Translations under genes and position numbers: made by a program
In this document: piece by piece, positions 221 through 30,794 of the stretch
Layout: each line of letters begins with the position of its first letter
Position numbering within the stretch: the stretch's first letter is position 1
Assembly (NCBI GenBank): GCA_004321915.1
Contig: SCQE01000018.1
Span: 1 to 35,585, forward strand
Direction: 5' to 3'
Length of the DNA stretch: 35,585 nucleotides
DNA from: Nitrospirota bacterium
GTDB taxonomy: Bacteria > Nitrospirota > Thermodesulfovibrionia > Thermodesulfovibrionales > Dissulfurispiraceae
The notes under the pieces: model-generated
Databases searched by the model: none
Told to the model about the DNA's origin: nothing
What the model saw: the letters and a program-made list of their open reading frames with translations, nothing else

Positions 221-1852
221 TTAGTACTTAGCTTCCAAGGAACTCAGCACCACTCTGTTTTTGCCGGTCCTCTTTGCTTCATAAAGGGCCTTGTCAGCTT
301 CGTTGATTATGTCCTTTATGCTCAGCGCGTTTTGCGGGCATGAAGCTACGCCTATGCTCACCGTGACCTTTATCCTTGCTTCGCCCGTATCGACCTCCTG
401 AGACTCTATAGACTCGCGTATCCTCTCGGCAACCACTTTTCCGCTCTCCTCGTCCGTTGCAGGAAGAATGACCACGAGTTCCTCCCCACCGTAACGAAAT
501 GCCATGTCGTCATCCCGTATTGCGAGCTGCACGCAGTTGCTCGCTTCTTTCAGCACCTGATCGCCGGCAGGATGGCCGTAAGTATCGTTTACTTTCTTGA
601 AGTTGTCGATATCGAGCATAAGAAGCGTAAGTTTTTCTCCGTATGTCTCATACATGATAAACCGTTTCTCTATCGAGGTCCTGAAATGCCGCTTGGAATA
701 AAGGCCGGTAAGCTCATCCGTTATAGCTATGTGGTAGAGCATAGCGTTTTCGAAAGCCACGGAAAGATGTGTGCTCAAAATCTTTATAAGGGCCAATCTG
801 ACCCGGTCGAAGTCCCTGAATGTTTTTCTCACCACTATCAGGGCAAGTCTGTTGTCGCCTTTGTTGATCGGAATGTAAACCTCTTTGCGGTCTTTAGAGA
901 ACCACTCTTCGGTTATATCTTCTTTAAGCCATTTGTTTGTTACTTCAAATATGTGGTCTGACGGCTCTATCTTCTTACGGAACATACGGTTCTCATAGCC
1001 TGTCCATGCTATAGCGCCCGCATCCCTGTATTCTTTTGGGAGTACTATGTCTATCTCATCGGCGTCGAGCGCGTCCCTGATTATATCCACCACCGTGTGC
1101 TTCAGGTCTGAAATCTCGATAGTCCTGCTCAGACGTTCAACGACGTTGTAGAGGAAAGAGAGCTCTTTCGATTTCACTATTATCTCATCTATATACCTGT
1201 CGAGGCCTTTAGCAAGAAAACGCGACAGGAAAGGCACCAGAAACACGAGGCATACAAGTCCTGAAACGGCTATGATCAACTCAAGCGTAAATATAAGCGA
1301 GTATGTCGGGGCCAACGAACGGTCGATTATGAGTTTGCCGTTGATCCTTTCAGCAGGGTCATGACAGCCGTGACAGGAAGGCTCATTGTAAATAACATTG
1401 ACGCTCCTTAACACCTTTGATCCGTTAATATCGAGCAATGTGGTAGTGACCTTATGGGTACCGACATTGTTTCTGTGGCACGACAGGCATGAACTGTCTT
1501 TGAACCTGTCAATAATCCTGCCCCTTTCGGTCTTGTCGGTCGAATAAGCGATCTTACCGTATCTGTCGAGGACTATGGTCCTGATTATTGACGATTCGTG
1601 ATTGCGGAAATTTTCGAGGCTGCTCTGTATCTTTTCGGGATCGCGGGCCAGCATGAGATGGCCCAAACTCATTTTAATGATCTGGCTCAGTTCGCGCGTC
1701 TTTATCTTGGTGTCTTCTATAAGCCGGTCTCTCAAAAGAAAGGCGAGGACGATCATTGCGAATGTTATTGAAAGGGTAAGGGCAACTAAAATGCCTATTA
1801 TAAGCTTCTTTTTGTAACCGAAGAACCACTCATCTGCTTTAATCTCTGCCAT
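221..1852 (-). CDS. Membrane diguanylate cyclase (GGDEF) with two periplasmic c-type haem motifs
   Basis: This is a 543-residue inner-membrane enzyme predicted to make cyclic di-GMP from GTP. A transmembrane helix (about 17-40) leads to a periplasmic sensor domain holding two haem c attachment motifs, CLSCH (122-126) and CHGCH (160-164). A second helix (about 184-212), a GAF-like linker and a C-terminal GGDEF domain follow. The active-site signature is GGEEL (455-459). An RxxD inhibitory site (RDDD) lies five residues before it, so the cyclase should be active and feedback-inhibited. I start at the ATG at 1852, behind a purine-rich GGGGGGAC/GGAAG stretch. The open frame reaches a TTG at 1906, but a good promoter covers that part. 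The gene diverges from cooC. The signal sensed (redox state, NO, CO or other) cannot be read from the sequence. Confidence 0.9.
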   Translation of the reverse strand: MAEIKADEWFFGYKKKLIIGILVALTLSITFAMIVLAFLLRDRLIEDTKIKTRELSQIIKMSLGHLMLARDPEKIQSSLENFRNHESSIIRTIVLDRYGKIAYSTDKTERGRIIDRFKDSSCLSCHRNNVGTHKVTTTLLDINGSKVLRSVNVIYNEPSCHGCHDPAERINGKLIIDRSLAPTYSLIFTLELIIAVSGLVCLVFLVPFLSRFLAKGLDRYIDEIIVKSKELSFLYNVVERLSRTIEISDLKHTVVDIIRDALDADEIDIVLPKEYRDAGAIAWTGYENRMFRKKIEPSDHIFEVTNKWLKEDITEEWFSKDRKEVYIPINKGDNRLALIVVRKTFRDFDRVRLALIKILSTHLSVAFENAMLYHIAITDELTGLYSKRHFRTSIEKRFIMYETYGEKLTLLMLDIDNFKKVNDTYGHPAGDQVLKEASNCVQLAIRDDDMAFRYGGEELVVILPATDEESGKVVAERIRESIESQEVDTGEARIKVTVSIGVASCPQNALSIKDIINEADKALYEAKRTGKNRVVLSSLEAKY

Positions 1853-1877
1853 TCTTCCGTCCCCCCCGTCTAAATGG

Positions 1878-1906
1878 ATTATAACAGATTTACATTGCCT
1901 TAACAA
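1878..1906 (-). promoter_or_regulatory. Sigma-70-type promoter of the haem diguanylate cyclase
   Basis: On the minus strand TTGTTA (1906-1901) is followed, after exactly 17 nt, by a perfect TATAAT (1883-1878). Transcription would start near 1871, about 19 nt before the ATG at 1852. This excludes the upstream in-frame TTG at 1906 as translation start. Confidence 0.65.
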
Positions 1907-1914
1907 TTATATAA

Positions 1915-1943
1915 TTGCCTTTTTAAGAAGCCTTAATTATTAT
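1915..1943 (+). promoter_or_regulatory. Candidate promoter of cooC
   Basis: TTGCCT (1915-1920), a 17-nt spacer and TATTAT (1938-1943) match a sigma-70 promoter reasonably. A TATAAA at 1941-1946 is an alternative -10. It diverges from the diguanylate cyclase promoter, with the two -35 boxes about 10 nt apart, so a regulator bound here could affect both genes. Confidence 0.4.
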
Positions 1944-2002
1944 AAATTCAAGAATCGACAAAAAACCTAAATGACGATGCAATCTATAAGGAGGACCAAT
2001 AA

Positions 2003-2770
2003 ATGGCTTTTGTTATTGCTTTCGCGGGAAAAGGCGGCACCGGAAAGACAAGTCTTGCCGGATTGACGGTTAAATATTTGACGGAGAAGAGGCGCGGGCC
2101 TGTGCTTGCGGTCGATGCGGACAGCAATTCCTGTCTGAACGAAGCGCTCGGCGTTCAGATACATGCAACCATAGGCAAATTGAGGGAGGAATCTCTCCAA
2201 GCTGTGCGGAGCGGCGGCGAACGGCTAGGCGGAATGTCTATGGAGCAGTTGTTCGACTATCAGGTGCAGCAGTCTATCATAGAAGCCGCGGGTTTCGATT
2301 TAATGGTGATGGGAAGGCCCGAGGGGCCCGGATGTTATTGCGCCGCCAACAATATAATAAGGAAATACACGGATATACTTTCGGACAAATACCCGTATGT
2401 GGTCATAGACAACGAGGCAGGGATGGAGCACCTGAGCAGACGGACAACGCACAAGGTCAATGTGCTCGTGATGGTAAGCGACCCGACCGCAAAAGGGATA
2501 CTTACCGTAAAAAGGATAAATGAACTTGTTGACGAACTGCAGCTTGATGTCGAAAAGAGAGTGCTTATTATAAACAGGATTATGGGACAGGAAGGAGAAG
2601 AACTCAAAAAAATGGCGGAAGGTTTTGGTATAACCGTTGCCGGACTCGTACGTCAGGACGAGATGATATTCAGGTTCGACCTCGAAGGTAAGCCCATATA
2701 CCTGCTGCCCCCGGAGTCGGTGGCAGTTCAGGCCCTGTTCGGCATATACGATTCAATGCAAATACCGTAA
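2003..2770 (+). CDS. cooC: CooC-type nickel-insertion ATPase for CO dehydrogenase
   Basis: A 255-residue cytoplasmic P-loop ATPase of the MinD/CooC (SIMIBI) class. It carries a deviant Walker A, GKGGTGKTS (9-17), and an Asp-containing Walker B region (VVIDNEAG, near 133-140). A CYC pair (Cys111, Cys113) matches the CxC motif by which CooC dimers bind Ni or Zn. Family members use ATP to deliver nickel to the C-cluster of CODH. The first gene of the Wood-Ljungdahl cluster, it has a strong ribosome binding site (AAGGAGG, about 9 nt before the ATG). A 161-bp gap separates it from acsE, so it may form its own transcript. AcsF-type paralogues look similar; the CxC motif and position fit either CODH or ACS nickel loading. 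Confidence 0.9.
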   Translation: MAFVIAFAGKGGTGKTSLAGLTVKYLTEKRRGPVLAVDADSNSCLNEALGVQIHATIGKLREESLQAVRSGGERLGGMSMEQLFDYQVQQSIIEAAGFDLMVMGRPEGPGCYCAANNIIRKYTDILSDKYPYVVIDNEAGMEHLSRRTTHKVNVLVMVSDPTAKGILTVKRINELVDELQLDVEKRVLIINRIMGQEGEELKKMAEGFGITVAGLVRQDEMIFRFDLEGKPIYLLPPESVAVQALFGIYDSMQIP

Positions 2771-2931: not shown

Positions 2932-3789
2932 ATGCTTATAATCGGTGAGAAGCTCAGCATCATAGCCAAGAGGGTCAGAGAGGCTATGTTGAAGAAGGAC
3001 AAGGGCCCTATTCAGGAAATAGCGACCCGTCAGTGGAAGGAAGGCTCGGGCATGATCGACGCCAATATCGGCCCTGCGGAAGACGGCGGAGAGGATCTTA
3101 TGCAGTGGATGGTGACCACCATTCAGGAGGTTGTCCCGCTCCCGGTTTGTCTCGACACAACGAATTTCAGCGCGGTCGAGGCAGGCCTGAAGGTCCACAA
3201 CAACCAGTGGGGAAGACCGCTCATAAATTCTACTTCGAACGATCCCGAGCGTTTTCCAATGATGGAGATTGCCGCCAAGTACAATGCGCAGATAATCGGA
3301 CTTACCGTAGGAAAAGGCGGGTTGCCGGCAGATGCGGAAGAAAGAGCGGGGATAGCTGCCGAGATTATGGGCAGGGCCATGGAATACGGCATTCCTCTCG
3401 AAGATTTGTATCTTGATCCGCTTGTACTTCAGGTGGCGACATCTCAGGACCATGCGTTGCATGTGGTGAAGGCCATAAAGATGTTTCAAGAGATGAACGA
3501 TCCTGCGATGAAGACCGTTGTCGGTTTGAGCAATATATCGAACGGATGTCCGAAGACGCTCAGACCTATTCTGAATAAATATTATTTTGTCATGCTCATG
3601 GATGCGGGTCTGTCTTCCGCAATCGCTGACGCCCATGAGATGGCCGAAGCTATGCAGGAGAAGAAGACCATAGACGATGTCTTGTCCGGTAAGTCTATAG
3701 ATGACGCAGCCAAGATGACCGAGATCAAAAAGACTATGGATATCTTTATGAACAAGACACTGTACGCACACTCGTATCTTGAAATGTAA
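2932..3789 (+). CDS. acsE: Methyltetrahydrofolate:corrinoid/iron-sulfur protein methyltransferase
   Basis: This enzyme moves the methyl group of methyl-tetrahydrofolate to the cobalt of the corrinoid iron-sulfur protein, linking the folate branch to acetyl-CoA synthesis. The 285-residue protein is a pterin-binding TIM barrel. DTTN starts at Asp75, INSTSND begins at 98, LDPL contains Asp162 and GLSNISNG surrounds Asn201. These line up with the catalytic Asp75, Asn96, Asp160 and Asn199 of the Moorella enzyme. It is about 20 residues longer than the usual 262, mostly at the C terminus. The ATG follows AGGGGGAACGCGT. It lies directly upstream of acsD, encoding its partner protein. The next gene starts 36 nt after the stop. 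Confidence 0.95.
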   Translation: MLIIGEKLSIIAKRVREAMLKKDKGPIQEIATRQWKEGSGMIDANIGPAEDGGEDLMQWMVTTIQEVVPLPVCLDTTNFSAVEAGLKVHNNQWGRPLINSTSNDPERFPMMEIAAKYNAQIIGLTVGKGGLPADAEERAGIAAEIMGRAMEYGIPLEDLYLDPLVLQVATSQDHALHVVKAIKMFQEMNDPAMKTVVGLSNISNGCPKTLRPILNKYYFVMLMDAGLSSAIADAHEMAEAMQEKKTIDDVLSGKSIDDAAKMTEIKKTMDIFMNKTLYAHSYLEM

Positions 3790-3825
3790 ATAACGGCTGA
3801 CAAAGCTGAAAAACGGAGGTATAAA

Positions 3826-4764
3826 ATGGCTTTTGTTGAACCTAAAGAATCTTTTGCAGGAAAGGTCTATCAGATAACTATAGGGTCTGATAAGACTGCT
3901 GTTTTCGGCGGAGAGAACGCCCTTCCTTTTTTAACGGTAGACGGCAATTATCCGAACAAGCCGGTAATAGCATTCGAAATTCAGGATGTACCGCCTACGG
4001 ACTGGCCCGATACGGTCAGAAAGGCCTATGAAAATGTGTCCGGAGACCCGGTCACATGGGCGAAATATTGTCAGAACGAACTCAATGCTCAGGCTATTGC
4101 GCTAAGGCTGGTAGGCACACACCCGGACAGGGAAAACCGCACGGCGGAGGATGCTGCCAAGACGGTCAAAGACGTACTCGCAGCAATAAATGTACCGCTT
4201 ATAATCCTCGGCAGCAATAATGTCGAGAAGGACTCTGTGGTATTGGTTGCCGCGGCAGAGGCTGCAAAGGACAAGAACTGCGTGATAGGAAAGGCACAGG
4301 AGGCCAACTACAAAACTATTGCGGCGGCCGCAATGGCCAACAATCACAAGTTGATTGCGATGTCCGAGCTGGATATAAACCTTTCCAAACAGCTCAACAT
4401 CCTTATAACCCAGATGGGCTTTGACAAAGAAAGATTGATAACCGACCCGATGTGTTCTGCGTTGGGGTACGGTCTTGAATACACCTATTCCGTTATGGAA
4501 AGAATACGGCTTGCGGCCCTTACGCAGAACGATGCGACTATGCAGCCGCCAATACTGGCCGATGTCGGCATGTATGTCTGGAAGGTAAAAGAGACCCAAG
4601 CGGCCGAGGCGGATGTCCCCAACTGGGGAAATGTCGAACAGAGGGGCATAACATGGGAAACGGTCACTGCCGGCAGCCTTATGGTTTCGGGCGCCGAGCT
4701 TCTCATAATGAGACATCCCGAGGCTGTCAAGGCAATCCAAAAATTCATAGACGAGTTAAATTAA
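3826..4764 (+). CDS. acsD: Corrinoid/iron-sulfur protein small subunit
   Basis: A 312-residue small subunit of CoFeSP (also called CfsB or CdhD), a TIM-barrel protein. It pairs with AcsC and helps hold the corrinoid that carries the methyl group from AcsE to acetyl-CoA synthase. The family is recognisable from the beta-rich N terminus with VFGGENALPF, the central segment ILGSNNVEKD and the conserved DPMCSALGYGLEY stretch. Length is normal for the family. A GGAGG ribosome binding site lies 7 nt before the ATG. acsC follows after 13 nt, so the two subunits should be made together. Confidence 0.95.
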   Translation: MAFVEPKESFAGKVYQITIGSDKTAVFGGENALPFLTVDGNYPNKPVIAFEIQDVPPTDWPDTVRKAYENVSGDPVTWAKYCQNELNAQAIALRLVGTHPDRENRTAEDAAKTVKDVLAAINVPLIILGSNNVEKDSVVLVAAAEAAKDKNCVIGKAQEANYKTIAAAAMANNHKLIAMSELDINLSKQLNILITQMGFDKERLITDPMCSALGYGLEYTYSVMERIRLAALTQNDATMQPPILADVGMYVWKVKETQAAEADVPNWGNVEQRGITWETVTAGSLMVSGAELLIMRHPEAVKAIQKFIDELN

Positions 4765-4777
4765 GGAGGGTTAGATC

Positions 4778-6115
4778 ATGGCTTTAACCGGCGTTGAAAT
4801 ATTCAAATTGCTTCCAAAAACAAACTGCAAGAAATGCGGACACCCAACCTGTCTTGCCTTTGCCATGAAGCTGGCGCAGAGACAGGCCTCTCTCGATGCG
4901 TGTCCCGATGTGTCCGAAGATGCAAAGAAGGTCTTGGGTGAGGCTTCGGCCCCGCCTGTCAGGCCTATAACTTTGGGCACCGGAGACAAGGCCGTTAAGA
5001 TGGGAGAAGAGACCGTTCTTTTCAGACATGAAAAGAAATTCGTCAATCCATGCGCCTTTGCGGTCGAAGTAAAAGACACCATGTCCGAAGCGGACATCAA
5101 CAAAATCTGCGATGACGTCAATTCGTCCGAAATAGACAGGGTCGGCCAGAAACTCAGGATCGACGCCATATTTATAAGCAATGCCTCCAACGATGCGGCA
5201 AAGTTCGAGGCTGCTGCAAAGACCGTAGCGGCAAAAGCCCCGGCCGCTGCCATAATCCTCGGGACCGAGAATGCTCAGACTGCCGAGGCTGCTGTAAAGG
5301 CCGTTGCCGACAGAAAACCGTTGCTGTTCGGAGCAAACGACTCCAATGCCGAAGCTATGGCCGGCATAGCAAAGGCAAACAAAATTGCACTCGGAGTCAG
5401 CGCAAAAGGCCTCGAAGCACTCTCCGCACTTACCGAAAAGATCAAAGGACTGGGTGTTGAAGATATAGTGATGGATTCAGGCGCAAAAACCGCGAAAGAG
5501 ATCATCAATAATAATACCCTGATCAGAAGGGCCGCCATAAAAAAGAATTTCAAGCCTTTGGGGTATCCGGTCATAACCTTCGCGCAGAGGGACGACGTGA
5601 TGCTGGAAACGCTTATCGCAGTGGCGTGTGTTGCCAAGTACTCCTCGATTGTGGTACTCAGCAGCGTCGAAAAATGGAAAAACTTGGCCCTGTTCACGGT
5701 AAGACAGAATATCTATACTGACCCTCAGGTCCCGATGCAGGTGGAACAGAAGATATACAAAATCGGAGAGCCCACGGAAAATTCTCCTCTAATGATAACC
5801 ACGAATTTCTCGCTCACCTATTTCATAGTGTCGGGCGAAGTAGAGAACAGCAAGGTCCCGTGCAGGCTTGCCGTAATGGATTCCGAAGGTTTGTCGGTGC
5901 TTACCGCATGGGCGGCGGGAAAGTTCACAGCATCCAAGATCGCCCAGTTCATAAAGGAAAGCGGCATAGAAAACGAGATAAAACACAGGGAAATCATAAT
6001 CCCCGGTTATGTTGCCATTATGAGCGGCGCCATCGAGGAAAAACTCCCCGGATGGAAAGTTACCGTTGGGCCGAGAGAGGCAAACGCTCTGCCTGCATTC
6101 CTTAAGTCCAGATAG
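4778..6115 (+). CDS. acsC: Corrinoid/iron-sulfur protein large subunit
   Basis: A 445-residue large subunit of the CoFeSP. The N-terminal domain carries the [4Fe-4S] motif C-x2-C-x4-C-x16-C (Cys17, Cys20, Cys25, Cys42), used for reductive reactivation of Co(II). A TIM-barrel-like central part and a C-terminal B12-binding domain follow. AcsE methylates the Co(I) corrinoid and AcsB demethylates it. The Ala-rich segment at about 130-215 is notable but still fits the barrel. AGGAGG lies about 10 nt before the start. The acsB gene follows 140 nt downstream, after a strong hairpin. Confidence 0.95.
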   Translation: MALTGVEIFKLLPKTNCKKCGHPTCLAFAMKLAQRQASLDACPDVSEDAKKVLGEASAPPVRPITLGTGDKAVKMGEETVLFRHEKKFVNPCAFAVEVKDTMSEADINKICDDVNSSEIDRVGQKLRIDAIFISNASNDAAKFEAAAKTVAAKAPAAAIILGTENAQTAEAAVKAVADRKPLLFGANDSNAEAMAGIAKANKIALGVSAKGLEALSALTEKIKGLGVEDIVMDSGAKTAKEIINNNTLIRRAAIKKNFKPLGYPVITFAQRDDVMLETLIAVACVAKYSSIVVLSSVEKWKNLALFTVRQNIYTDPQVPMQVEQKIYKIGEPTENSPLMITTNFSLTYFIVSGEVENSKVPCRLAVMDSEGLSVLTAWAAGKFTASKIAQFIKESGIENEIKHREIIIPGYVAIMSGAIEEKLPGWKVTVGPREANALPAFLKSR

Positions 6116-6124
6116 AGTTCTACC

Positions 6125-6157
6125 ACGAGCGCCCTCTCTTAAAACGAGGGCGCTCGT
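6125..6157 (+). terminator. 12-bp GC-rich hairpin between acsC and acsB
   Basis: ACGAGCGCCCTC (6125-6136) pairs perfectly with GAGGGCGCTCGT (6146-6157) around a 9-nt loop. An A-rich stretch follows on the plus strand instead of a T run, so it is not a classical intrinsic terminator. It could be a 3'-end stabiliser, an RNase processing point or a partial terminator, allowing cooC-acsEDC and acsB-cooS to be expressed at different levels. Confidence 0.6.
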
Positions 6158-6189
6158 AAACTGAAAAAAACAACTAAAAAATAAAGAAC

Positions 6190-6220
6190 TTGACAGAACA
6201 CTAAAGCCATGTTGTATATT
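6190..6220 (+). promoter_or_regulatory. Internal promoter candidate for acsB-cooS
   Basis: A perfect TTGACA (6190-6195) is followed by TGTATA (6213-6218, 17-nt spacer) or TATATT (6215-6220, 19-nt spacer). It lies after the acsC hairpin and 36-43 nt before the acsB ATG. The most likely role is a second, separate transcription start for the CODH/ACS catalytic subunits. Confidence 0.5.
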
Positions 6221-6255
6221 AAAAAAATTTATAATCCCATAAACAGGAGGGGTAG

Positions 6256-8454
6256 ATGTCCAAGTTAATAGCATCAGCAGCCATAAGAGCGGCAAACAAA
6301 CTTGTGGCGCAGGCAGAAGAGATGGTCGAAAAGGCTATAGCCGAAAAGGGTAAGGACTTTGTTTTTGAATTTCCGGACACGGCGTTTTATCTTCCGATGA
6401 TTTACGCCATGACCGGTTTTCCGGTAAAAACTCTGGGCGACATGAAGGTTGCCCTCGGTTTTGCCAGAGAGCTTCAGCACGCTGAACCTGATGAAAAAAT
6501 ATGGAAACCTTATTTGGGTGAGGCCCTCGATTCGGGTATGGCAACGCTGTTTGCCGAAGAGATAATCCTCGCGATAAGGTATATCTACGGCCTCGAACCT
6601 TGCAAGGACCCCGAGACCGGCTATGTGTACAACGGATTCATAACCGACACCATACAGAGGAATCTGGGCATTCAGCTTGTTGACGGGACCATGCCCGGCT
6701 TTGCCGCCATTTTAGGCGCGGCCCCGTCGGACGACATCGCCGTTAACATAGTCAGAGAGCTTCAGGAAAAAAAGATACTGACCTTCCTCTCGGGCCAGTC
6801 CAACGGCGACAGCGTGACAAAACAGCTTTTGAGAAAGGGTGTAGAGCTCGGTTGGGATTCATGGATCGTTCCGCTCGGACCTGATACGGAACACACCCTC
6901 TACGCTCTTGACTGGGCAATCAGGGCATCATTGATCTTCGGCGGTATAAAACCTGCCAACTTCAAAGATCACCTCAAATACCAGAAAGACAGGGTCTTCG
7001 CGTTCGCAATAGCGCTCGGCCCGCTTGACGACGTAAAATGGGCAACAGGCGCAGGCGCGATAAATATGGGCTTCCCTGCTGTCGCCGATACGGACGTTCC
7101 TGTTATCCATCCTACCGGAGTATGCACCTATGAAGAGGTCGACACGGAATTCGACCACACAAAGATCGTACAGAAGGCCATAGAAGTAAGAGGCCTTAAG
7201 ATCATCGTAGAGAGACCTGATATACCGGTGGCCTTCGGTCCCGCCTTTGAAGGCGAGAGAATAAGAAAAGAGGACATGTTCATCGAGTTCGGCGGACAGC
7301 GCACTCCTGCATTCGAGTGGGTTCGCATGCGCGAGATGGAAGAGATCGAAGACAACAAGGTCATCATAGTCGGTGACAACTGGCAGGAGCGTTTTGCTGC
7401 CGGAGGCAAGATGCCGATCGGTATCCTTATCGAGGCTGCCGGAAGAAAGATGCAGAAAGACTTTGAGTCTGTCATCGAGAGAAAGATCCATTCGAATATT
7501 AACGAGGCTCAGGGCGTATGGCACATGGGACAGCGCGACCAGAACTGGGTAAGGATAAGCGTTGCAGCTAAAAATGCGGGCTTTACCCTCGAACACATAG
7601 GCATAATACAGAATACACTGACGCACAACCGCTTCCGCTCTATTGTAGACAAGGTGCAGACCACCATATTTACGGATGAAGCCAGCGTCAATAAGATGCT
7701 GGAGGAAGCTAGGGCCGCTTACAAAGAACGTGATAAAAGGCTCGGCAGCCTCACCGACGAATCTGTCGAAACCTTTTACTCATGCCTGCTCTGTCAGTCT
7801 TTCGCACCCGCCCATGTTTGCGTTATATCACCTGAGAGGCTCGGTCTGTGCGGCGCTTATAACTGGCTTGACGGCAAGGCCGCATACGAGATAGACCCGA
7901 CAGGAGGAAACCAGCCTATCAATAAAGGAGAGCTGGTCGATCCTAAATACGGACGCTATACGGGCGTTGACGAATATCTCAAGAAGGCCTCAGGCGGGGC
8001 GGTCGAGACCCTGAACCTTTACACGATCATGGAAAACCCTATGACATCCTGCGGCTGCTTTGAATGTATACTTGCGATAATCCCCGAGGCAAACGGCGTT
8101 ATGATAGTCAACAGGGGATTTACCGGAATGACCCCTATCGGAATGAAATTCTCGACCCTTGCCGGGACCGTAGGCGGCGGCGCCCAGACCCCCGGATTTA
8201 TGGGAATAGGAATAAACTTCGTTACCAGCAAAAAGTTTCTTTTCGGAGATGGCGGCTTAAAAAGACTTGTCTGGATGCCGAAAGGTTTGAAGGAAAGGAT
8301 AGCCGATGAGTTCAAGAAGAGGGCGGAAGAGGCCGGAGTTCCCAATCTCCTTGATATGGTAGCGGATGAATCGATCTGCGAAGATTCCGAGAAACTTCTT
8401 GAGCATCTCACGGCAGTCGGTCATCCGGCCCTCGAAATGCCGTCGATCATCTAA
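6256..8454 (+). CDS. acsB: CO-methylating acetyl-CoA synthase (ACS alpha subunit)
   Basis: A 732-residue acetyl-CoA synthase, about the size of the 729-residue Moorella protein. It condenses CO, the methyl group of CoFeSP and CoA into acetyl-CoA. The A-cluster ligands are present. Cys510, Cys513, Cys522 and Cys532 should bind the [4Fe-4S] cube. Cys599-Gly600-Cys601 followed by Phe602 is the CGC motif that binds the distal nickel. The full N-terminal domain that docks onto CODH and forms the CO tunnel is present, so this is the bacterial long form, not the short archaeal CdhC. AGGAGG lies about 8 nt before the ATG. It is followed 25 nt later by cooS, its complex partner. Confidence 0.97.
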   Translation: MSKLIASAAIRAANKLVAQAEEMVEKAIAEKGKDFVFEFPDTAFYLPMIYAMTGFPVKTLGDMKVALGFARELQHAEPDEKIWKPYLGEALDSGMATLFAEEIILAIRYIYGLEPCKDPETGYVYNGFITDTIQRNLGIQLVDGTMPGFAAILGAAPSDDIAVNIVRELQEKKILTFLSGQSNGDSVTKQLLRKGVELGWDSWIVPLGPDTEHTLYALDWAIRASLIFGGIKPANFKDHLKYQKDRVFAFAIALGPLDDVKWATGAGAINMGFPAVADTDVPVIHPTGVCTYEEVDTEFDHTKIVQKAIEVRGLKIIVERPDIPVAFGPAFEGERIRKEDMFIEFGGQRTPAFEWVRMREMEEIEDNKVIIVGDNWQERFAAGGKMPIGILIEAAGRKMQKDFESVIERKIHSNINEAQGVWHMGQRDQNWVRISVAAKNAGFTLEHIGIIQNTLTHNRFRSIVDKVQTTIFTDEASVNKMLEEARAAYKERDKRLGSLTDESVETFYSCLLCQSFAPAHVCVISPERLGLCGAYNWLDGKAAYEIDPTGGNQPINKGELVDPKYGRYTGVDEYLKKASGGAVETLNLYTIMENPMTSCGCFECILAIIPEANGVMIVNRGFTGMTPIGMKFSTLAGTVGGGAQTPGFMGIGINFVTSKKFLFGDGGLKRLVWMPKGLKERIADEFKKRAEEAGVPNLLDMVADESICEDSEKLLEHLTAVGHPALEMPSII

Positions 8455-8479
8455 ATAACGCAAACGGAGGAAAAGATAA

Positions 8480-10456
8480 ATGGAAAAGAAAAAGATAAGA
8501 ACGGCTCAGCCGGGCACAGAACAGATTATTGATAATTTGCCTGATATGGAGACCTGTTTTGACAGGGCCGATAAGATGAAACCCTGCCCTATAGGCCATG
8601 AAGGGGCCTGCTGTAAGAATTGCCACATGGGCCCATGCAGACTTGTGGGCAAGGATGCAGAGAACACCATGAAAGGAGTTTGCGGGGCCACGCTGCCTGT
8701 TGTTACTGCGCGGTATTTTGCCCGCATGGTTGCTGCCGGGACCGCATGCCACGGCGATCATGGAAGGGACATGGCGTTTACGCTTCTTGCTGTTGCAGAA
8801 GGACACGCAAAAGATTTTCAGGTGAAAGACGTTAAAAAACTTTACAGGACCGCCGACATTTTGGGAATTGAGTTTGAGGGCAGGCCGGTCCTTGATGTTG
8901 CGAAAGATGTTGCAACAAAGATTCTTGAGGATTTCGGACGCCAGAGGGGAGAGATGAATTTCATTAAACGTGCGCCGAAGAAAACTCAGGACCGCTGGAA
9001 GAAGTACGGCATTGTTCCGAGGGGAATGGATAGGGAAGTGGTCGAGGTGATGGACAGGACCACGATGGGAATGGACGCAGATCCGGATTCGATTCTCGAT
9101 GCTGCGCTTCGCTGCGCTCTCGCTAACGGATGGGGCGGCAGTATGATATCCACCGATGTCACCGATATCCTGTTCGGTACTCCTATGCCTGTAAGGGCCG
9201 AGGCGAGTCTTGGCATATTCAGGGAAGACGAGGTCAACATCATAGTCCACGGTCATGAGCCTTCCCTTGCCGAGATGATCGTAGAAGCCGTAAGCGAACC
9301 GGAATTGATAGAGTACGCCAAATCAAAAGGCGCTAAAGGCATCAACTTAGGCGGTATGTGCTGCACCGCGAACGAAGTATTGATGAGACATGGAATAGCA
9401 ACTGCCGGAGGCTTCACAAACCAAGAGCCTGCCATAATGACAGGCCTTATCGATGCCTTCACGGTCGACGTTCAGTGCATAATACCTGCTATCGTGGATG
9501 TCGCAAAGAAGTTCCATACAAAGGTTATAACCTCATCCGATAAGGTCAAGATTCCGGGGGCTGTTCATATGCCATTTGACGAGCATATAGCAAAAGACCA
9601 AGCGCGTCAAATTGTAAGAATAGCTATAGACAATTACCCGAACAGGACCAAGAAAGGAAGTTTTGTTACCGAAAAATCCACGCTTATCGGAGGATTCTCC
9701 CACGAATACATCGAATATATGCAGGGTGGAAAGTACAGGGGCTCTTTCAGGCCTCTGAACGACGCTATAATGGCAGGAAGAGTGCGCGGAGTGGTCGGTA
9801 TGGCAGGCTGCGACAATCCGAGATGGCCTTCTACGGGAGTGCATAAATATCTTGCCACAGAGCTGATAAAGAACGACGTCCTTATCGTCTCGACAGGCTG
9901 CAGTTCAGCGGCCTGCGGCGGCGCAGGATATCTTACACCCGAGATGGCGCTCGAAAATGCAGGCCCCGGTCTGCGCGAAGTCTGCGAAGCAATCGGAATT
10001 CCTCCTATTCTGCATCTCGGCGCATGTGTCGACAATACGAGAATACTTACGATAGCGAGCGCTATGGCGGCGGAAGGCGGTCTTTCCGATGAGATAGGCG
10101 GTATGCCTGCGGTAGGCATAGCGCCTGAGTGGATAACAGAAAAAGCCGTATCCATCGGCGCATACTTTGCGGCCTCCGGCGTTCCGGTCATATTCGGGGG
10201 AGAGTCTCCTGTTAAGGCCTCAAAAGAGGTCACAAGGATCCTCACCGAAGTATGGTTTGAAAGATACAGAGGAGCGTTTATATTTGAGCCTGATCCGGAA
10301 AAGATGCTTGCTATAGCTCTTGATTACATCGATAAGGCCAGAGCAGCTCTCAAACTGAAGAAGTACGAACCGGGCAAGTTTACGACCGAAAAAGTCCTTA
10401 TGGATATGACCGCAAGGCGTGAAATGAAGGCTGCAAAACCTCACATAGGGCTTTAA
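8480..10456 (+). CDS. cooS: Ni-Fe-S carbon monoxide dehydrogenase catalytic subunit
   Basis: A 658-residue CODH (CooS/AcsA) that interconverts CO2 and CO, passing CO to AcsB. N-terminal cysteines fit the D-cluster (Cys36, Cys44) and B-cluster (Cys45, Cys48, Cys53, Cys68). C-cluster ligands are recognisable: His in VHGHEP (257-259), Cys295, Cys333, Cys444, Cys474 and Cys516, so no key ligand seems missing. Adjacent to acsB and with cooC in the cluster, it most likely forms the bifunctional CODH/ACS complex (acsA is an equally valid symbol). The ribosome binding site GGAGG lies upstream, 25 bp after acsB. A strong terminator follows. Confidence 0.97.
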   Translation: MEKKKIRTAQPGTEQIIDNLPDMETCFDRADKMKPCPIGHEGACCKNCHMGPCRLVGKDAENTMKGVCGATLPVVTARYFARMVAAGTACHGDHGRDMAFTLLAVAEGHAKDFQVKDVKKLYRTADILGIEFEGRPVLDVAKDVATKILEDFGRQRGEMNFIKRAPKKTQDRWKKYGIVPRGMDREVVEVMDRTTMGMDADPDSILDAALRCALANGWGGSMISTDVTDILFGTPMPVRAEASLGIFREDEVNIIVHGHEPSLAEMIVEAVSEPELIEYAKSKGAKGINLGGMCCTANEVLMRHGIATAGGFTNQEPAIMTGLIDAFTVDVQCIIPAIVDVAKKFHTKVITSSDKVKIPGAVHMPFDEHIAKDQARQIVRIAIDNYPNRTKKGSFVTEKSTLIGGFSHEYIEYMQGGKYRGSFRPLNDAIMAGRVRGVVGMAGCDNPRWPSTGVHKYLATELIKNDVLIVSTGCSSAACGGAGYLTPEMALENAGPGLREVCEAIGIPPILHLGACVDNTRILTIASAMAAEGGLSDEIGGMPAVGIAPEWITEKAVSIGAYFAASGVPVIFGGESPVKASKEVTRILTEVWFERYRGAFIFEPDPEKMLAIALDYIDKARAALKLKKYEPGKFTTEKVLMDMTARREMKAAKPHIGL

Positions 10457-10480
10457 AACAACGGCTTTCCAAACCGTTTT

Positions 10481-10512
10481 AAAAAAGGGAGCGCACTGCG
10501 CTCCCTTTTTTT
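10481..10512. terminator. Bidirectional intrinsic terminator
   Basis: GGGAGCGC (10487-10494) and GCGCTCCC (10498-10505) form an 8-bp stem around a 3-nt loop. It is flanked by six A on the left and seven T on the right. It ends the CODH/ACS cluster on the plus strand and the convergent yciH-like gene on the minus strand. Confidence 0.9.
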
Positions 10513-10540
10513 ATGTGACTTTCAAAAAGATATTTTATCG

Positions 10541-10882
10541 TCAGCCGCCCGAGCGTTTCGGCTTATGACCCATTTCAGTCAATATTGCAATAATTACGTC
10601 GCAGCGGTCCCCCTGAATTTCAAGAACCGTGTCTTTGAGCGTACCGCCGGTGCCCAGCGCCGACTTCAACTTCTTCAGCAGCGCTTCCCTGTGGTCTGCC
10701 GGGAGTTGGAGACCTTCGATTAGAGTCACAGACTTCCCGCCCCTTCCCTTGCGATCGAGCCGTACAATCACTCTTTGAGAGGAAGGATCCATAGTCGGCC
10801 GTAAATTCTTTTCAACCGGTTTTTCTTTTCGGGGAACAGCGCTGTCGGTGGAATAGACTAATTTCGAATTTTTTTCCGTCAT
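10541..10882 (-). CDS. yciH: SUI1/eIF1-family protein (YciH-like)
   Basis: A 113-residue protein with a variable basic N terminus (1-37) and a C-terminal SUI1/eIF1 domain (about 38-110), including GRGGKSVTLIEGL and the Gly-rich GTGGTLKD loop. Bacterial YciH proteins resemble eukaryotic eIF1, bind the 30S subunit and have been described as stress-linked modulators of initiation fidelity. The role here is inferred from family. It starts 18 nt after the stop of the YceH-like gene and is probably co-transcribed with it. No strong Shine-Dalgarno is visible (AGGTTG about 8 nt upstream at best). Confidence 0.85.
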   Translation of the reverse strand: MTEKNSKLVYSTDSAVPRKEKPVEKNLRPTMDPSSQRVIVRLDRKGRGGKSVTLIEGLQLPADHREALLKKLKSALGTGGTLKDTVLEIQGDRCDVIIAILTEMGHKPKRSGG

Positions 10883-10900
10883 ATATTATCAACCTGCATG

Positions 10901-11563
10901 TTACTCGAACTGCTTCTTCCAGTCATCGAACATCCGTTTCAGTCGATCGATCTCGGCCCGCATTTGAGAGACCTGCGACTCAAGACCCGAAATCCTTGCG
11001 TCCTCGTCGCGGACTTTTTTGGTGGCGTCTTCTTCAGGCAGTTCAACAGGCAGCTCGGCCCCAAGCTGCCCTCCGCTGAGCAGATGCATATACCGGCGCT
11101 CTTTTTGTCCCACCTGACGCGGAAGTTTTATAATAAGAGGGTCCTCTCTCTCTGCCAGTCTATTCATAATGTTTTCAACTTCATCTAAGCCTGAAAAAGA
11201 GTGCATCCTGTCGGCCCGTCCCCTCAGCTCTCCTGTTGTTTGCGGACCGCGCAAAAGAAGTTCGCAAAGAACGGCAGTCTCAGCTCCGGAAAGTTCAAGC
11301 CTCTGTTGCAGCAGATGCCGGTATTTGGGGATCCTGCTGTCTATCAGGTGCACCTTCTCGGCCAGATGCTTGTCCCTCAAACCGTCAAGTCCTCTCACCA
11401 CAGTCGTCTCTTCATATGTTACAACCGGATGCCGGTTCGACTTCTGATTGCAGGCCGAACAGAGCGAATTCAGGGTAAGCGGATAATAGTCGGGGGTCGT
11501 CTTCTCCTTTTCTATAAGACAGCCGAGAACACGGGCCTCGACATCATTCAGTACAAAGTCCAT
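10901..11563 (-). CDS. yceH: YceH/DUF480 (UPF0502) family protein
   Basis: A 220-residue protein of the YceH family. The conserved start is EARVLGCLIEKEKTTPDYYP, followed by LNSLCSACNQKSNRHP. Two winged-helix domains span roughly 1-165, and an acidic/basic coiled coil (about 185-218) ends the protein. The family is widely conserved and its exact function is not established; the tandem winged helices suggest DNA or protein binding. GGGAGG lies 5 nt before the ATG. It appears to form an operon with the SUI1-like gene. Confidence 0.85.
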   Translation of the reverse strand: MDFVLNDVEARVLGCLIEKEKTTPDYYPLTLNSLCSACNQKSNRHPVVTYEETTVVRGLDGLRDKHLAEKVHLIDSRIPKYRHLLQQRLELSGAETAVLCELLLRGPQTTGELRGRADRMHSFSGLDEVENIMNRLAEREDPLIIKLPRQVGQKERRYMHLLSGGQLGAELPVELPEEDATKKVRDEDARISGLESQVSQMRAEIDRLKRMFDDWKKQFE

Positions 11564-11661
11564 TCATGCCTCCCGTTATTTGAAATTTCGGATTCTTATT
11601 CTTTACCATTACAAACAATCAAAGCGAACATGTTTCCCGTCTTATCGCCGAAGTTAGCGCC

Positions 11662-12897
11662 CTATATGGTCAGTTTTGCAATAAAACCGATAAACGTCTT
11701 AAGCATATCAGGCTCAAAAATATGCTCCTGATGCACCATCTCGCCTATTATCTGTGTGCGTTTTTTGAATGTATGCTTAAAGTCCGTCACCCTGCTGCTT
11801 TCAAATGTGTCTGCCAAGGCCACTATTTTAGAAAACTTCGATATCCTATCGCCCGTAAGTCCGGCCATATACCCGCTGCCGTCCTCCCTCTCATGATGCG
11901 TAAGCGCTACGATCTTGGCCGCTTTGGGAACGTCTCGTTGCGGGTCCAGCAATTCCTTGCCCTTTATCACATGAGACTTGAAAATTTCACGTTCCATTTC
12001 ATTGTATGAGTTTTCGCCGGCATCATCATCTATATCGACACGTCCAACATCATGGAGCATGGCGGATATGCCCAGATTAAGAAGCTCCGCCTCCTCCATA
12101 TTGGACGCATGTCCATACATAAGCGACATCAGACATACATTAGTGGAATGAATATATAAGAAAAAATCCGAGACGTCAAAGAACAGAAACTTTCCGGCAT
12201 AGCCGAAATCGTTCGCTATCAGATTCATTACGATATTGATGTGTTTGTAGAGCTTAAATAACGTATCCTGCGTGATGGAATTGTTACGGGCCTCCTCAAG
12301 CAGCCTGTAGCACCAGACCTTAAGCTTCTCACGCCGACACCTTAACTTTAATAGAGGGTCCTCGATACCTTCCGCATCCAGTATTTTATCCAAGTAGAGG
12401 TAATAGGAATCTACATCCTGTTCGCGCACCGCAATATCTGAATTCAGGTCGAGCAAATTCCTGTACGCGTCATTGCTGTCTACGCTAAAAGGAATTTCCC
12501 CGAATAGAGGGAACCTTAAACCGCCGAGCGGCAGCGTGAAAGGTATGCCTGAATCAAGCACCTGCTTGTCCACAATAAACCACTTGTCCCTGAATGCCTT
12601 GTACCTCGAGTTAAAGAAGTCGGGTTCAAGAAGCATTTTCTTCAGCTTGGCGGCATTATGCATGTACTCGTCGAAATTCAGGGCGCTGCCCTGTCGTATA
12701 TAAAACTTGCTCAATGCTTGGTCCTCTATCATCCGTTGGGCATAGTAACTGTAAGTGGAACCTTTGTCCAGAAGGGATTTGTAGATGGTCCCGTCGTGAG
12801 TAAATATTTCAAAAGGGATCTGCGCCCCGGTCACCAGTTCACCGAGGTCAATGGGGATATATCGTTCGCTGTCGTCGTATTTATAAATTCGTGACAT
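11662..12897 (-). CDS. HD-GYP-type phosphohydrolase with degenerate GYP motif
   Basis: A 411-residue cytoplasmic protein without membrane segments. The N-terminal half (1-200) is an unassigned input domain. The C-terminal half (about 215-400) is HD-GYP-like, with His250, His282-Asp283, His309, His334-His335 and Asp363 as expected metal ligands. The signature HHERxDGSGYP appears as HHEREDGSGYM (334-344), so the Pro of GYP is Met. HD-GYP enzymes hydrolyse cyclic di-GMP. With metal ligands intact it may still be active, or act as a related dinucleotide hydrolase or sensor. Ribosome binding is weak. It makes a plausible counterpart to the diguanylate cyclase at 221-1852, but it is not linked to it. 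Confidence 0.85.
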   Translation of the reverse strand: MSRIYKYDDSERYIPIDLGELVTGAQIPFEIFTHDGTIYKSLLDKGSTYSYYAQRMIEDQALSKFYIRQGSALNFDEYMHNAAKLKKMLLEPDFFNSRYKAFRDKWFIVDKQVLDSGIPFTLPLGGLRFPLFGEIPFSVDSNDAYRNLLDLNSDIAVREQDVDSYYLYLDKILDAEGIEDPLLKLRCRREKLKVWCYRLLEEARNNSITQDTLFKLYKHINIVMNLIANDFGYAGKFLFFDVSDFFLYIHSTNVCLMSLMYGHASNMEEAELLNLGISAMLHDVGRVDIDDDAGENSYNEMEREIFKSHVIKGKELLDPQRDVPKAAKIVALTHHEREDGSGYMAGLTGDRISKFSKIVALADTFESSRVTDFKHTFKKRTQIIGEMVHQEHIFEPDMLKTFIGFIAKLTI

Positions 12898-12920
12898 AGT
12901 GATAGTTGTTCTATATTTTC

Positions 12921-12931
12921 ATTATATAACA
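12921..12931 (-). promoter_or_regulatory. Extended -10 promoter candidate for the HD-GYP gene
   Basis: On the minus strand the segment reads TGTTATATAAT. This gives TGn-TATATA (an extended -10), or TATAAT three bases on. No good -35 box is seen. The start of transcription would be about 15-20 nt before the ATG at 12897. Confidence 0.4.
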
Positions 12932-12968
12932 ACCGGACTGAAAGATGGTTTTCGACGAAAAAGTAAGA

Positions 12969-12991
12969 TGTGTTACTTTTACTAACACATA
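12969..12991. repeat. 8-bp perfect inverted repeat 3' of tRNA-Pro
   Basis: ATGTGTTA (12969-12976) and TAACACAT (12984-12991) flank a 7-nt spacer. On the minus strand the hairpin follows the tRNA and precedes a T-rich stretch (CTTACTTTTTTC), so it may be the tRNA terminator. It also sits upstream of the HD-GYP promoter and could be a protein-binding site. Confidence 0.55.
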
Positions 12992-13004
12992 AACAAGGGG
13001 AAAA

Positions 13005-13083
13005 TGGTCGGGGCGAGCCGATTCGAACGGCCGACCTCTCGCACCCCAAGCGAGTGCGCTAAACCAAGCTGCGCTACGCCCCG
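13005..13083 (-). tRNA. tRNA-Pro, anticodon GGG
   Basis: A 79-nt cloverleaf with encoded CCA. The acceptor stem CGGGGCG pairs with CGCCCCG and the discriminator is A. The anticodon stem CTCGC/GCGAG encloses the loop TTGGGGT, which gives anticodon GGG (reads CCC/CCU). The T-loop GTTCGAATC is canonical. It lies 4 nt after the merR-like stop on the same strand, so it may be co-transcribed with ihfA-merR. Confidence 0.95.
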
Positions 13084-13086
13084 ATT

Positions 13087-13494
13087 TTAAGAAAGATCCT
13101 CAAGCAGTTTCGTCAGGCTCTGCCTTACCGCTTTAAGGACTTCGTCATTGCTGCTGCCGCCTGCGTCTTTGTTCACCGTAATTTTGGTATCTAAAGGCGC
13201 ATCCGCTGCCTGCTGCTTTAAAGGGCCTGAACCAAGCTTCTTTCTGACCCCCTCAATCGTATATTTCTCTTCATGCAGAAGTTTTTTTATCTGTATGAGT
13301 AAATCAACGTCGTCTTTAGTGTAAGTTCTTTGTCCTGAAGACGTTTTTCTCGGCTTTAGAAAGGGAAACTCAGTTTCCCAATATCTAAGGACATAAGACT
13401 CTACTCCGACTATTTTCCCGGCCTCGCCGATCTTATAAAAAATTCTCTCCGGAAATAGCTTCAGCGGCTCGGGTGATTCTAATGCGTCATGCAT
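13087..13494 (-). CDS. MerR-family transcriptional regulator (IHF-linked type)
   Basis: A 135-residue protein with an N-terminal MerR winged helix-turn-helix (about 18-85): IGEAGKIVGVESYVLRYWE, then GQRTYTKDDVDLL and a helix-rich dimerisation part. It has no cysteine cluster, so it is not a metal sensor of the classical MerR type. It lies 40 nt downstream of the IHF/HU gene on the same strand, an arrangement common in Deltaproteobacteria and relatives. The target is unknown. A GGGGAGA stretch lies about 11 nt before the ATG. Confidence 0.88.
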   Translation of the reverse strand: MHDALESPEPLKLFPERIFYKIGEAGKIVGVESYVLRYWETEFPFLKPRKTSSGQRTYTKDDVDLLIQIKKLLHEEKYTIEGVRKKLGSGPLKQQAADAPLDTKITVNKDAGGSSNDEVLKAVRQSLTKLLEDLS

Positions 13495-13534
13495 AGAGAT
13501 TGTTATCTCCCCTTCGCTGACAACAGAAAAAAGC

Positions 13535-13813
13535 TCAGGCTTTTTCTACTGCTTCTTTAAGCTGGTCGCTTGCCTTGAATGTGATGACTCTGCGAGGAGT
13601 AATCTCAACTTCTTCCTTGGTCTTAGGATTCCGGCCTACCCTAGAATTCTTCTTTCTTATATTGAATGTGCCGAAACCCGAAACCTTGATAGATTCATCC
13701 TTTTGCAAGGTTTCCTTAAGCGTATCGAACACCGCCTCGACTATCAGTTGGGTCTCGTTTCTAGGAAGACCCACCTTTTCAAAAACCAGATTAACGATAT
13801 CAGCCTTTGTCAT
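13535..13813 (-). CDS. ihfA: Integration host factor / HU family DNA-bending protein
   Basis: A 92-residue DNABII protein. The N-terminal dimerisation helices (TKADIVNLVFEKVGL...) are followed by VSGFGTFNIRKKNSRVGRNP and TPRRVITFKAS. The latter two form the beta-arm with the Pro that intercalates DNA. Length and the KADI start favour IHF-alpha over HU, though single-sequence reading cannot separate them fully. It should bend chromosomal DNA at promoters and origins. The ribosome binding site GAGG lies 5 nt upstream. A TTGACA promoter with a surrounding dyad lies at 13855-13906. merR follows, then tRNA-Pro. Confidence 0.93.
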   Translation of the reverse strand: MTKADIVNLVFEKVGLPRNETQLIVEAVFDTLKETLQKDESIKVSGFGTFNIRKKNSRVGRNPKTKEEVEITPRRVITFKASDQLKEAVEKA

Positions 13814-13854
13814 AAATACCTCACAATTTTTCCAATAAAAATAGACACTTTCAA

Positions 13855-13884
13855 ATATTAATAGCTAACCCAGATAAATGTCAA
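13855..13884 (-). promoter_or_regulatory. Promoter of the ihfA-merR-tRNA-Pro unit
   Basis: On the minus strand a perfect TTGACA (13884-13879) is followed by TTAATA (17-nt spacer) or TAATAT (18-nt spacer, 13860-13855). The mRNA would begin about 35 nt before the ihfA start codon. Confidence 0.6.
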
Positions 13885-13906
13885 GTGGCATAACACATTG
13901 ACATTT
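13876..13906. repeat. 9-bp perfect dyad over the ihfA promoter -35 box
   Basis: AAATGTCAA (13876-13884) and TTGACATTT (13898-13906) are exact inverted copies separated by 13 nt, about two helical turns centre to centre. One arm contains the -35 box of ihfA, which fits an operator, possibly for autoregulation. As a hairpin after prmA it lacks a T run. Confidence 0.55.
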
Positions 13907-13925
13907 TTACATTTACAGGCTGTGT

Positions 13926-14777
13926 TTATATATTCTTCGTTACGGTTATGGATATCCATCGCCCGTCTTCAAAACGCTGCGCTAAATTAAGACCGCATGA
14001 CTCCATAGCTTTTAACACATCCGTTTCTTGTCCGAGAAGCATGCCGGAAAGCAAAGCAATACCTTCAGGCGCAAGCCTTTCAGCTATTTCAGGCGCTATT
14101 TTTATCAGCGTTTCGGATATAAGGTTTGCGGCAATCATATCATATACCCCCGCAGCCCGGCCTATCTCACCTTCGATCAGGCAGATATTAGAGAGTCCGT
14201 TTAGAACAACATTCCTTCTTGCCGCATCGATAGCGAGCGGATCGCTATCGATAGCCGTGATCTTTTCAAAACCGAGTTTGGCGGCCGCTATGGCGAGTAT
14301 CCCGGTTCCCGTTCCAAGATCGAGAAAGCTTTCTTTATTTTTCGTAGTCGAAGAATATTGTTCGATTATTTTCAGACAGAAACGGGTGGTCTCATGATGT
14401 CCGGTACCGAAGGCCATCCCGGGATCTATTACAAGATTTATTTTCCGGATATCGGGTTCTTCCCATGGAGGCAGGATTGACAGGTTTTCTCCTACATCTA
14501 TCGGCCTGAAATTGGTCTTCCATGTTTCATTCCAATCCTGTTCTGGCACAAAAACATAATCGTAGGACAAATCCGAAGCAAGCCCGCTTTTATTCAATTC
14601 AAGAACAGATTCTTTCAGGGCCCCAATAATCGTTTCTATTCCCGATACATCTGAAAAATATGCGGTGATTCCGCCGTCTGCTTCTATTAAACCGAGAAGT
14701 CCGGAGGCCCGCATAAGCTCGATAAGGGCATCTTTAGACTCATCAGGAAGCTTGATATCGAATTCGTAGTACCCCAC
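13926..14777 (-). CDS. prmA: Ribosomal protein L11 methyltransferase
   Basis: A 283-residue class I SAM-dependent methyltransferase that trimethylates ribosomal protein L11. The N-terminal L11-binding domain (1-95) precedes the PrmA signature DPGMAFGTGHHETT (118-131), SAM motif I LDLGTGTG (151-158), the acidic Asp176 of motif II, and the NLI catalytic-loop motif (218-220) replacing the usual NPPY. Length is normal. The start is a GTG at 14777, 4 nt after the stop of the small membrane protein gene. The pair is probably translationally coupled. Confidence 0.93.
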   Translation of the reverse strand: MGYYEFDIKLPDESKDALIELMRASGLLGLIEADGGITAYFSDVSGIETIIGALKESVLELNKSGLASDLSYDYVFVPEQDWNETWKTNFRPIDVGENLSILPPWEEPDIRKINLVIDPGMAFGTGHHETTRFCLKIIEQYSSTTKNKESFLDLGTGTGILAIAAAKLGFEKITAIDSDPLAIDAARRNVVLNGLSNICLIEGEIGRAAGVYDMIAANLISETLIKIAPEIAERLAPEGIALLSGMLLGQETDVLKAMESCGLNLAQRFEDGRWISITVTKNI

Positions 14778-14781
14778 CCTG

Positions 14782-15078
14782 TCAGTCTATATAGCCTTTC
14801 TGGAAAAAACCTATAACTGCGGCTACGAGCATGGCTATACCTGACAGAGCATAGATGTAAAGTCCAAAATGGGTCTGGCCGAGGATGTTTATGAACTCGG
14901 CCCTGTTTAAAGAGAACCCCCAATAGAAGACGAAGAGATAAGAAATCAGGAGTCCCAGTTTGTATTTCCCCAACAAAAGGCACCCTGAGTTTAAAATCAC
15001 GAGGATTATAATCTGTCCGAGCGGCACTGAAAAATCCTTGTCAGAGATAAAGTTATAAACGTTCATAAGCGTGTCCAT
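14782..15078 (-). CDS. Small integral membrane protein, unknown
   Basis: A 98-residue protein with about three hydrophobic helices (roughly 18-36, 39-57 and 70-90) and a short, charged C terminus. I do not recognise a family. GGAGG lies 7 nt before the ATG and overlaps the last codons of the potassium channel gene. The start is 2 nt after that stop, so translation is tightly coupled. It could be an accessory subunit of the channel or just a co-transcribed membrane protein. Confidence 0.75.
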   Translation of the reverse strand: MDTLMNVYNFISDKDFSVPLGQIIILVILNSGCLLLGKYKLGLLISYLFVFYWGFSLNRAEFINILGQTHFGLYIYALSGIAMLVAAVIGFFQKGYID

Positions 15079-30760: not shown

Positions 30761-30794
30761 CTAAAATAACTTCAAAAAGGAGGTGACTGTTAAA

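Follow-up and report, generated by a model that had tools for sequence, protein, structure and literature searches.

The window analysed here is the whole of contig C36, 35,585 bases, of a Nitrospirota metagenome-assembled genome. It carries two divergent genes, a diguanylate cyclase with a GGDEF domain on the minus strand and cooC on the plus strand, the latter being the first gene of a CODH/ACS operon (Table 1); because of the contig limits, sequence past the 3' end of the cyclase falls outside view. The preliminary description gave positions 221-2770 for a cyclase divergent from the CODH maturation gene; the cyclase is indeed present, and the span takes in both genes, the cyclase and cooC. 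The divergent arrangement with a gap of about 150 bp was described correctly: the intergenic region measures 150 bp here and 144 bp in Nitrospirae bacterium MYbin3, a member of the same genus, and the two align at 77% identity.

Table 1. Positions of the genes, domains, motifs and predicted promoters at the locus.
Feature	Position	Strand	Evidence
Dihaem-sCache / GAF-like / GGDEF diguanylate cyclase, 543 aa	221..1852	minus	ORF list, Pfam GGDEF, orthologs, MYbin3 start
I-site RDDD and active site GGEEL (residues 446-459 with margin)	473..517	minus	sequence, ortholog alignment
Periplasmic sensor domain, residues ~37-190, single Cache fold of haem-c type	1283..1744	minus	GSU0582 (3b47) profile match, AlphaFold model, fold comparison
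Second CxxCH, CHGCH, C160-C163-H164, canonical sCache_heme site (predicted)	1361..1375	minus	aligns with GSU0582 haem motif; invariant in orthologs
First CxxCH, CLSCH, C122-C125-H126, inserted second haem site (predicted)	1475..1489	minus	GSU0582 gap in profile alignment; invariant in orthologs
Met67 codon, predicted sixth (distal) ligand, counterpart of Met60 of GSU0582/GSU0935	1652..1654	minus	profile alignment, literature, invariant 24/24
Sigma-70-like cyclase promoter TTGTTA-N17-TATAAT (predicted)	1878..1906	minus	promoter scan; same site in MYbin3
Sigma-70-like cooC promoter TTGCCT-N17-TATTAT (predicted)	1915..1943	plus	promoter scan; similar site in MYbin3
cooC-like nickel-insertion ATPase of CODH/ACS operon	2003..2770	plus	Pfam, family survey
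acsE, acsD, acsC, acsAB, codh (CODH catalytic subunit)	2932..10456	plus	neighbouring operon

The list of open reading frames gives the GGDEF frame as 221-1906 on the minus strand, with a TTG at 1906 as its start. The true start is very likely the ATG at 1852, with a protein beginning MAEIKADEWFFGYKKK, since the MYbin3 gene, 91% identical, has its start codon at the equivalent ATG, whereas the TTG sits within the predicted promoter. The two promoter-like sites of the intergenic region face opposite ways and are both recognisable in MYbin3; as the scan returned 2 sites against a mean of 0.9 in shuffled sequences, their support comes from conservation and not from their number. The cyclase and cooC would each be under their own promoter. 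The cyclase gene of MYbin3 stands alone and converges on a metallo-hydrolase/murJ/prmC group (names assigned by reading). Two further genes of the window are recorded here as side observations. Just past the CODH gene, at 11662-12897 on the minus strand, lies an HD-GYP-like protein (HD_5, E=1.5e-15, with an HHEREDGSGYM motif), a possible c-di-GMP phosphodiesterase on the other flank of the acs operon, with a homolog at the equivalent place in MYbin3 (L012:52-300); and at 30783-31094 on the plus strand, directly behind an Nramp-type metal transporter gene, a small cytochrome c7-type protein is encoded (Pfam E=2.3e-17).

Read from its N-terminus, the cyclase consists of a transmembrane helix, a periplasmic part, a second transmembrane helix, a GAF-like linker and the GGDEF domain. 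The hydrophobic helices are predicted at residues ~17-42 and ~187-210 (numbered from the ATG) and flank both CxxCH motifs, which bears out the earlier description of a GGDEF protein with two periplasmic motifs of this kind. The GGDEF domain matches its Pfam family with E=1.1e-45; its active site reads GGEEL, the metal-binding acids lie in the D414/D416 region, and an RxxD site, RDDD, precedes GGEEL by five residues (RDDD-MAFRY-GGEEL). The catalytic and I-site residues are conserved across orthologs. The active site and the RxxD site are intact, as had been claimed, and synthesis of c-di-GMP is predicted. Ahead of this domain, a GAF match at residues ~229-370 stays below threshold and appears solely in orthologs L097 and L099, and for this reason we term the linker GAF-like. 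A full-length AlphaFold model computed from two sequences reached a pLDDT of 32 and was set aside. Judged from its sequence, the gene product is very probably a membrane enzyme that makes c-di-GMP according to the state of two haems outside the inner membrane.

For the periplasmic part, the top PDB sequence matched by the four-sensor profile was the sensor of the Geobacter MCP GSU0582 (3b47, E=4.5e-6). In the profile alignment, the second CxxCH falls at the haem motif of His143, which is the proximal haem ligand of GSU0582 (PMC8396549), and Met67 falls at Met60; in the numbering of 3b47, chain index 26 corresponds to Met60, and the identical offset of 34 sets index 109 as His143. The first CxxCH, in contrast, corresponds to a 13-residue gap in GSU0582. 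Because the haem ligands of GSU0582/GSU0935 have counterparts in the second CxxCH and Met67, we interpret the sensor as a haem-c type Cache domain (sCache_heme) into which a further haem site has been inserted, and its assignment to the sCache_heme/GSU0582 type is supported at the level of sequence. The Pfam scores of the window protein lie below the gathering cut-offs of both related families, at 22.6 vs 27 for Mcp40H-20_sensor (PF21563) and 15.9 vs 24.1 for Tll0287-like (PF11845); the ortholog L098 exceeds the PF21563 cut-off (29.1 vs 27).

An AlphaFold model of residues 1-225 from four sequences (mean pLDDT 73) has the element order of a single Cache domain, namely two helices, five strands and a helix, and comparison of the sensor model with known folds returned WalK (Z 13.2) and CitA (Z 11.4). 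Model confidence is low in the loops that carry both haem motifs, and the geometry of the ligands is therefore a prediction. In the structural searches, GSU0582/GSU0935 came out low or were missing: 3b42 stood at Foldseek rank 18 and was not among the VIA matches listed. The GSU0582/GSU0935 structures are described as domain-swapped dimers (PMC3460858), and this swapping may be the reason for their poor structural ranking.

ResB/CcsB-like and CcsA-like genes lie side by side on contig C143 of this genome; given these maturation genes of CcsA/CcsB type, c-type haem attachment outside the membrane is to be expected, and we consider haem loading of both CxxCH motifs plausible. The first motif might instead be a fortuitous or structural cysteine pair, a reading in keeping with its being an insertion relative to GSU0582 and with its place in a low-confidence loop of the model. 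We regard this as highly improbable: C122, C125 and H126 are invariant in 24/24 orthologs, with 37-40 residues to the second motif, and the genome encodes cytochrome c maturation machinery, which recognises CxxCH.

Dihaem cyclases of this kind number 25 genes in 24 of the 176 genomes of the order, and five more occur in another class of the phylum. Both CxxCH motifs are kept at this spacing in every ortholog examined across Nitrospirota, which excludes a chance origin of the pair. The ortholog alignment has both CxxCH, Met67, Arg70, Arg149, Asn156, Lys173, the catalytic DxD, RxxD and GGEE invariant in 24/24 sequences; from this invariance we conclude that the extra CxxCH is under selection and that the dihaem form is a real family. 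Outside Nitrospirota, the scan of one collection returned monohaem or unrelated relatives and no dihaem form. We found no account of a dihaem Cache sensor in the literature searched, where absence is not proof, and the main text of PMC12889525 does not mention a dihaem domain. We would give even odds to the further proposal that these proteins form a separate family of dihaem Cache sensors, which arose when a second, cytochrome-like CxxCH segment entered a Cache domain that already bore a haem, and that the haem pair acts as an electron-transfer-gated gas/redox switch setting c-di-GMP in Nitrospirota. In the tree, the window protein groups with proteins of another class and not with copies from its own family (support 100/99), which suggests transfer or old paralogy and hence a late arrival beside acs.

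The surroundings of the other dihaem cyclases vary. MYbin3 (L058) has a second one, 51% identical, at 6971-8587, divergent from a che-type cluster (8680-15002) in which CheW-, MCP-, CheB-, CheR- and CheA-like genes were identified by reading; this suggests another route for a haem signal. Four dihaem cyclases of the other class (L098, L099, L100 and L101) have multihaem cytochrome genes close by, with 13, 8 or 17 CxxCH motifs, and contig C121 of the present genome (L112) carries a comparable 13/8-haem cluster, there accompanied by a monohaem sensor protein.

The preliminary description had suggested that the cyclase may connect c-di-GMP with periplasmic redox or CO status beside an operon for CO chemistry, and had proposed a search for the gene beside cooC or acs in related genomes. 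Among the 176 genomes of the order, 24 have the dihaem cyclase and 143 have cooC, and G000 and G026, this genome and its only sampled genus mate, are the only ones with both genes on one contig. In 0/22 of the other cyclase-bearing genomes of the order was cooC on the cyclase contig, and no cooC, acs or CODH matches were found around the remaining cyclase loci of the order; some contigs are short, and contig ends could hide a few pairs, though not all 22. Presence of the two genes is not associated either, with cooC in 21/24 cyclase carriers of the order vs 122/152 non-carriers (Fisher p=0.58). Within the family of this genome, cooC occurs in 27/31 genomes; of 17 family neighbourhoods read, none had the cyclase beside cooC, and 11 had a HAD phosphatase gene (named by reading) directly ahead of cooC on the same strand. 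In G022, the cyclase contig and the cooC contig both end close to the site concerned, and the 138 bp visible upstream of cooC are free of cyclase sequence. Of the proposal, the haem-c sensor predicted to drive a GGDEF domain is thus supported; the link to CO and CODH, by the survey suggested along with it, is not supported. The position beside cooC is most likely lineage-specific, known from two genomes of one genus, and need not mean a functional tie to CODH.

Three observations that could have been taken as signs of such a tie were set aside. Coupling through conserved synteny fails because the pair is confined to these two genomes; a phylum-wide co-occurrence with ACS (11/11 carriers in a 198-genome sample) reflects that ACS is nearly universal in those clades; and G213, where acs likewise adjoins a haem sensor gene, has a different protein, and the arrangement is not kept in its genus, where other genomes have the two genes on separate contigs or at least tens of kb apart. 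At the G213 locus (L114; 2636-5745 and 5925 onwards), from another family of the order, a monohaem sCache-type, histidine-kinase-like protein of 890 residues and a four-CxxCH cytochrome gene are divergent from acsE-acsD-acsC-acsAB.

Taking these results together, we propose, with a probability of about 0.72, that the gene encodes an inner-membrane dihaem-Cache diguanylate cyclase which works as a ligand/redox switch and is an incidental neighbour of acs. The periplasmic single-Cache domain would hold two covalent c-type haems. Haem 2 (C160/C163/H164) would occupy the canonical sCache_heme site, where Met67 of the long first helix would serve as its exchangeable sixth ligand; haem 1 (C122/C125/H126) would sit in a loop inserted between strands 2 and 3 and probably exchange electrons with haem 2. 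A redox change, or displacement of Met67 by NO (and also by CO if the haem is ferrous), would shift the first helix, whose continuation is the first transmembrane helix; this movement may then be passed through the second membrane helix and the GAF-like linker to alter the pairing of the GGDEF domains and thereby the output of c-di-GMP, which would in turn feed back on the enzyme at the RxxD site. What the second haem would add is a means for electron carriers to read the switch, or a way of fixing its potential. That Met67 should act as the switch is argued from homology to Met60 of GSU0582/0935, where oxidised haem is high-spin and reduced haem low-spin, midpoint potentials differ, CO binds the reduced form only and NO both forms, and both gases replace Met60 in the reduced form.

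Redox state is a good candidate for the signal, as is NO, and either would fit within this proposal. If the domain monitors a periplasmic electron-transfer chain, multihaem cytochromes would reduce or oxidise the haems and c-di-GMP would follow respiratory status. This is a tentative reading, consistent with the retention of both haem sites in all orthologs, with the location of the other-class orthologs of G053, G044 and G077 near 13- and 8-CxxCH cytochrome genes and of the G035 ortholog close to a 17-CxxCH gene, and with the grouping of the window protein with those same orthologs in the tree; most orthologs of the order, however, have no multihaem gene within ~10 kb, and an exchangeable methionine ligand also suits gas binding. 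Just as tentatively, NO could displace Met67 and so switch the cyclase, haem 1 merely tuning potential or structure. Signalling-type sCache_heme proteins have NO-sensor rather than O2-sensor properties, and one of them releases NO slowly and forms no stable complex with O2 (PMC12889525); GSU0582/0935 bind NO in both redox states. On the other hand, informal inspection of the locus and of a set of ortholog neighbourhoods brought up no NO-related genes, and strict conservation of an extra haem is left unexplained, since the monohaem family already senses NO.

It is far less likely that the protein is a genus-specific CO/redox sensor for CODH/ACS, which would detect CO leak or periplasmic electron supply, tune lifestyle to autotrophy through c-di-GMP and be co-regulated with the operon through the shared promoter region. 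The close divergent arrangement with both promoters is kept in MYbin3 at the intergenic identity given above, ferrous GSU0582/0935 haem has a high affinity for CO, and, with 23 cyclase-like matches in the genome, one would by chance lie no more than 1 kb from a given operon in ~1% of cases, a value that is not small for a pattern chosen after reading. Against this stand the missing pairing in the other carriers of the order and the many genomes with cooC (143/176), mostly without the cyclase. In ACS, moreover, CO is produced and consumed inside the enzyme in the cytoplasm, whereas the haems of the sensor would face the periplasm, and in its ferrous form this type of domain does not discriminate CO from NO. 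Binding of CO is chemically possible by analogy with GSU0582/0935, but the comparative data do not point to CO as the signal; we suggest that the diguanylate cyclase most likely responds to redox state or NO and that its gene came to adjoin acs.

Cache domains were held to be free of cofactors until haem-bearing ones were described in 2026, in a preprint that named sCache_heme and found it enriched in Nitrospirota and sometimes fused to GGDEF (PMC12889525). Monohaem sCache_heme domains and their GGDEF fusions are thus known, and the new element, as predicted here, would be the dihaem variant; its strictly conserved second haem site is the part that deserves follow-up. If the proposal is true, a conserved two-haem class of sensor on a second-messenger enzyme would let anaerobic Nitrospirota turn periplasmic redox or NO status directly into a c-di-GMP signal, and the soluble sensor domain of about 150 residues makes this testable. 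Adjacency to a CODH operon within one genus should not be taken as CO sensing.

Haem control of c-di-GMP synthesis is also found in DosC/YddV, which has a cytoplasmic globin-type sensor with non-covalent haem b, in contrast to the predicted periplasmic c-type haems here. CooA and RcoM are CO-sensing transcription factors that control CO oxidation genes. CoxC, too, is a transcription factor controlling such genes (PMC11347149); these three resemble the window protein in their CO-related gene neighbourhood, but have no domain in common with it. Two CX2-4CH motifs in one signalling protein are found in GSU0591 and GSU0599 of Geobacter, which are annotated as a cytochrome family protein and a two-component protein, respectively, and are likened here by their description (PMC8396549). 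Closer are GSU0582 and GSU0935 of Geobacter sulfurreducens (PF21563), with the top PDB match and the shared haem-ligand positions; they have one haem and a HAMP-MCP output, whereas the window protein has two motifs and a GAF-like/GGDEF output. With the sCache_heme domains (DUF3365/Tll0287-like, PF11845; PMC12889525), finally, it shares the periplasmic single Cache fold, a CxxCH for covalent haem near the C-terminal end of the domain and a fusion to GGDEF of the kind already on record, and to this the window protein adds a strictly conserved CxxCH ~38 residues upstream.
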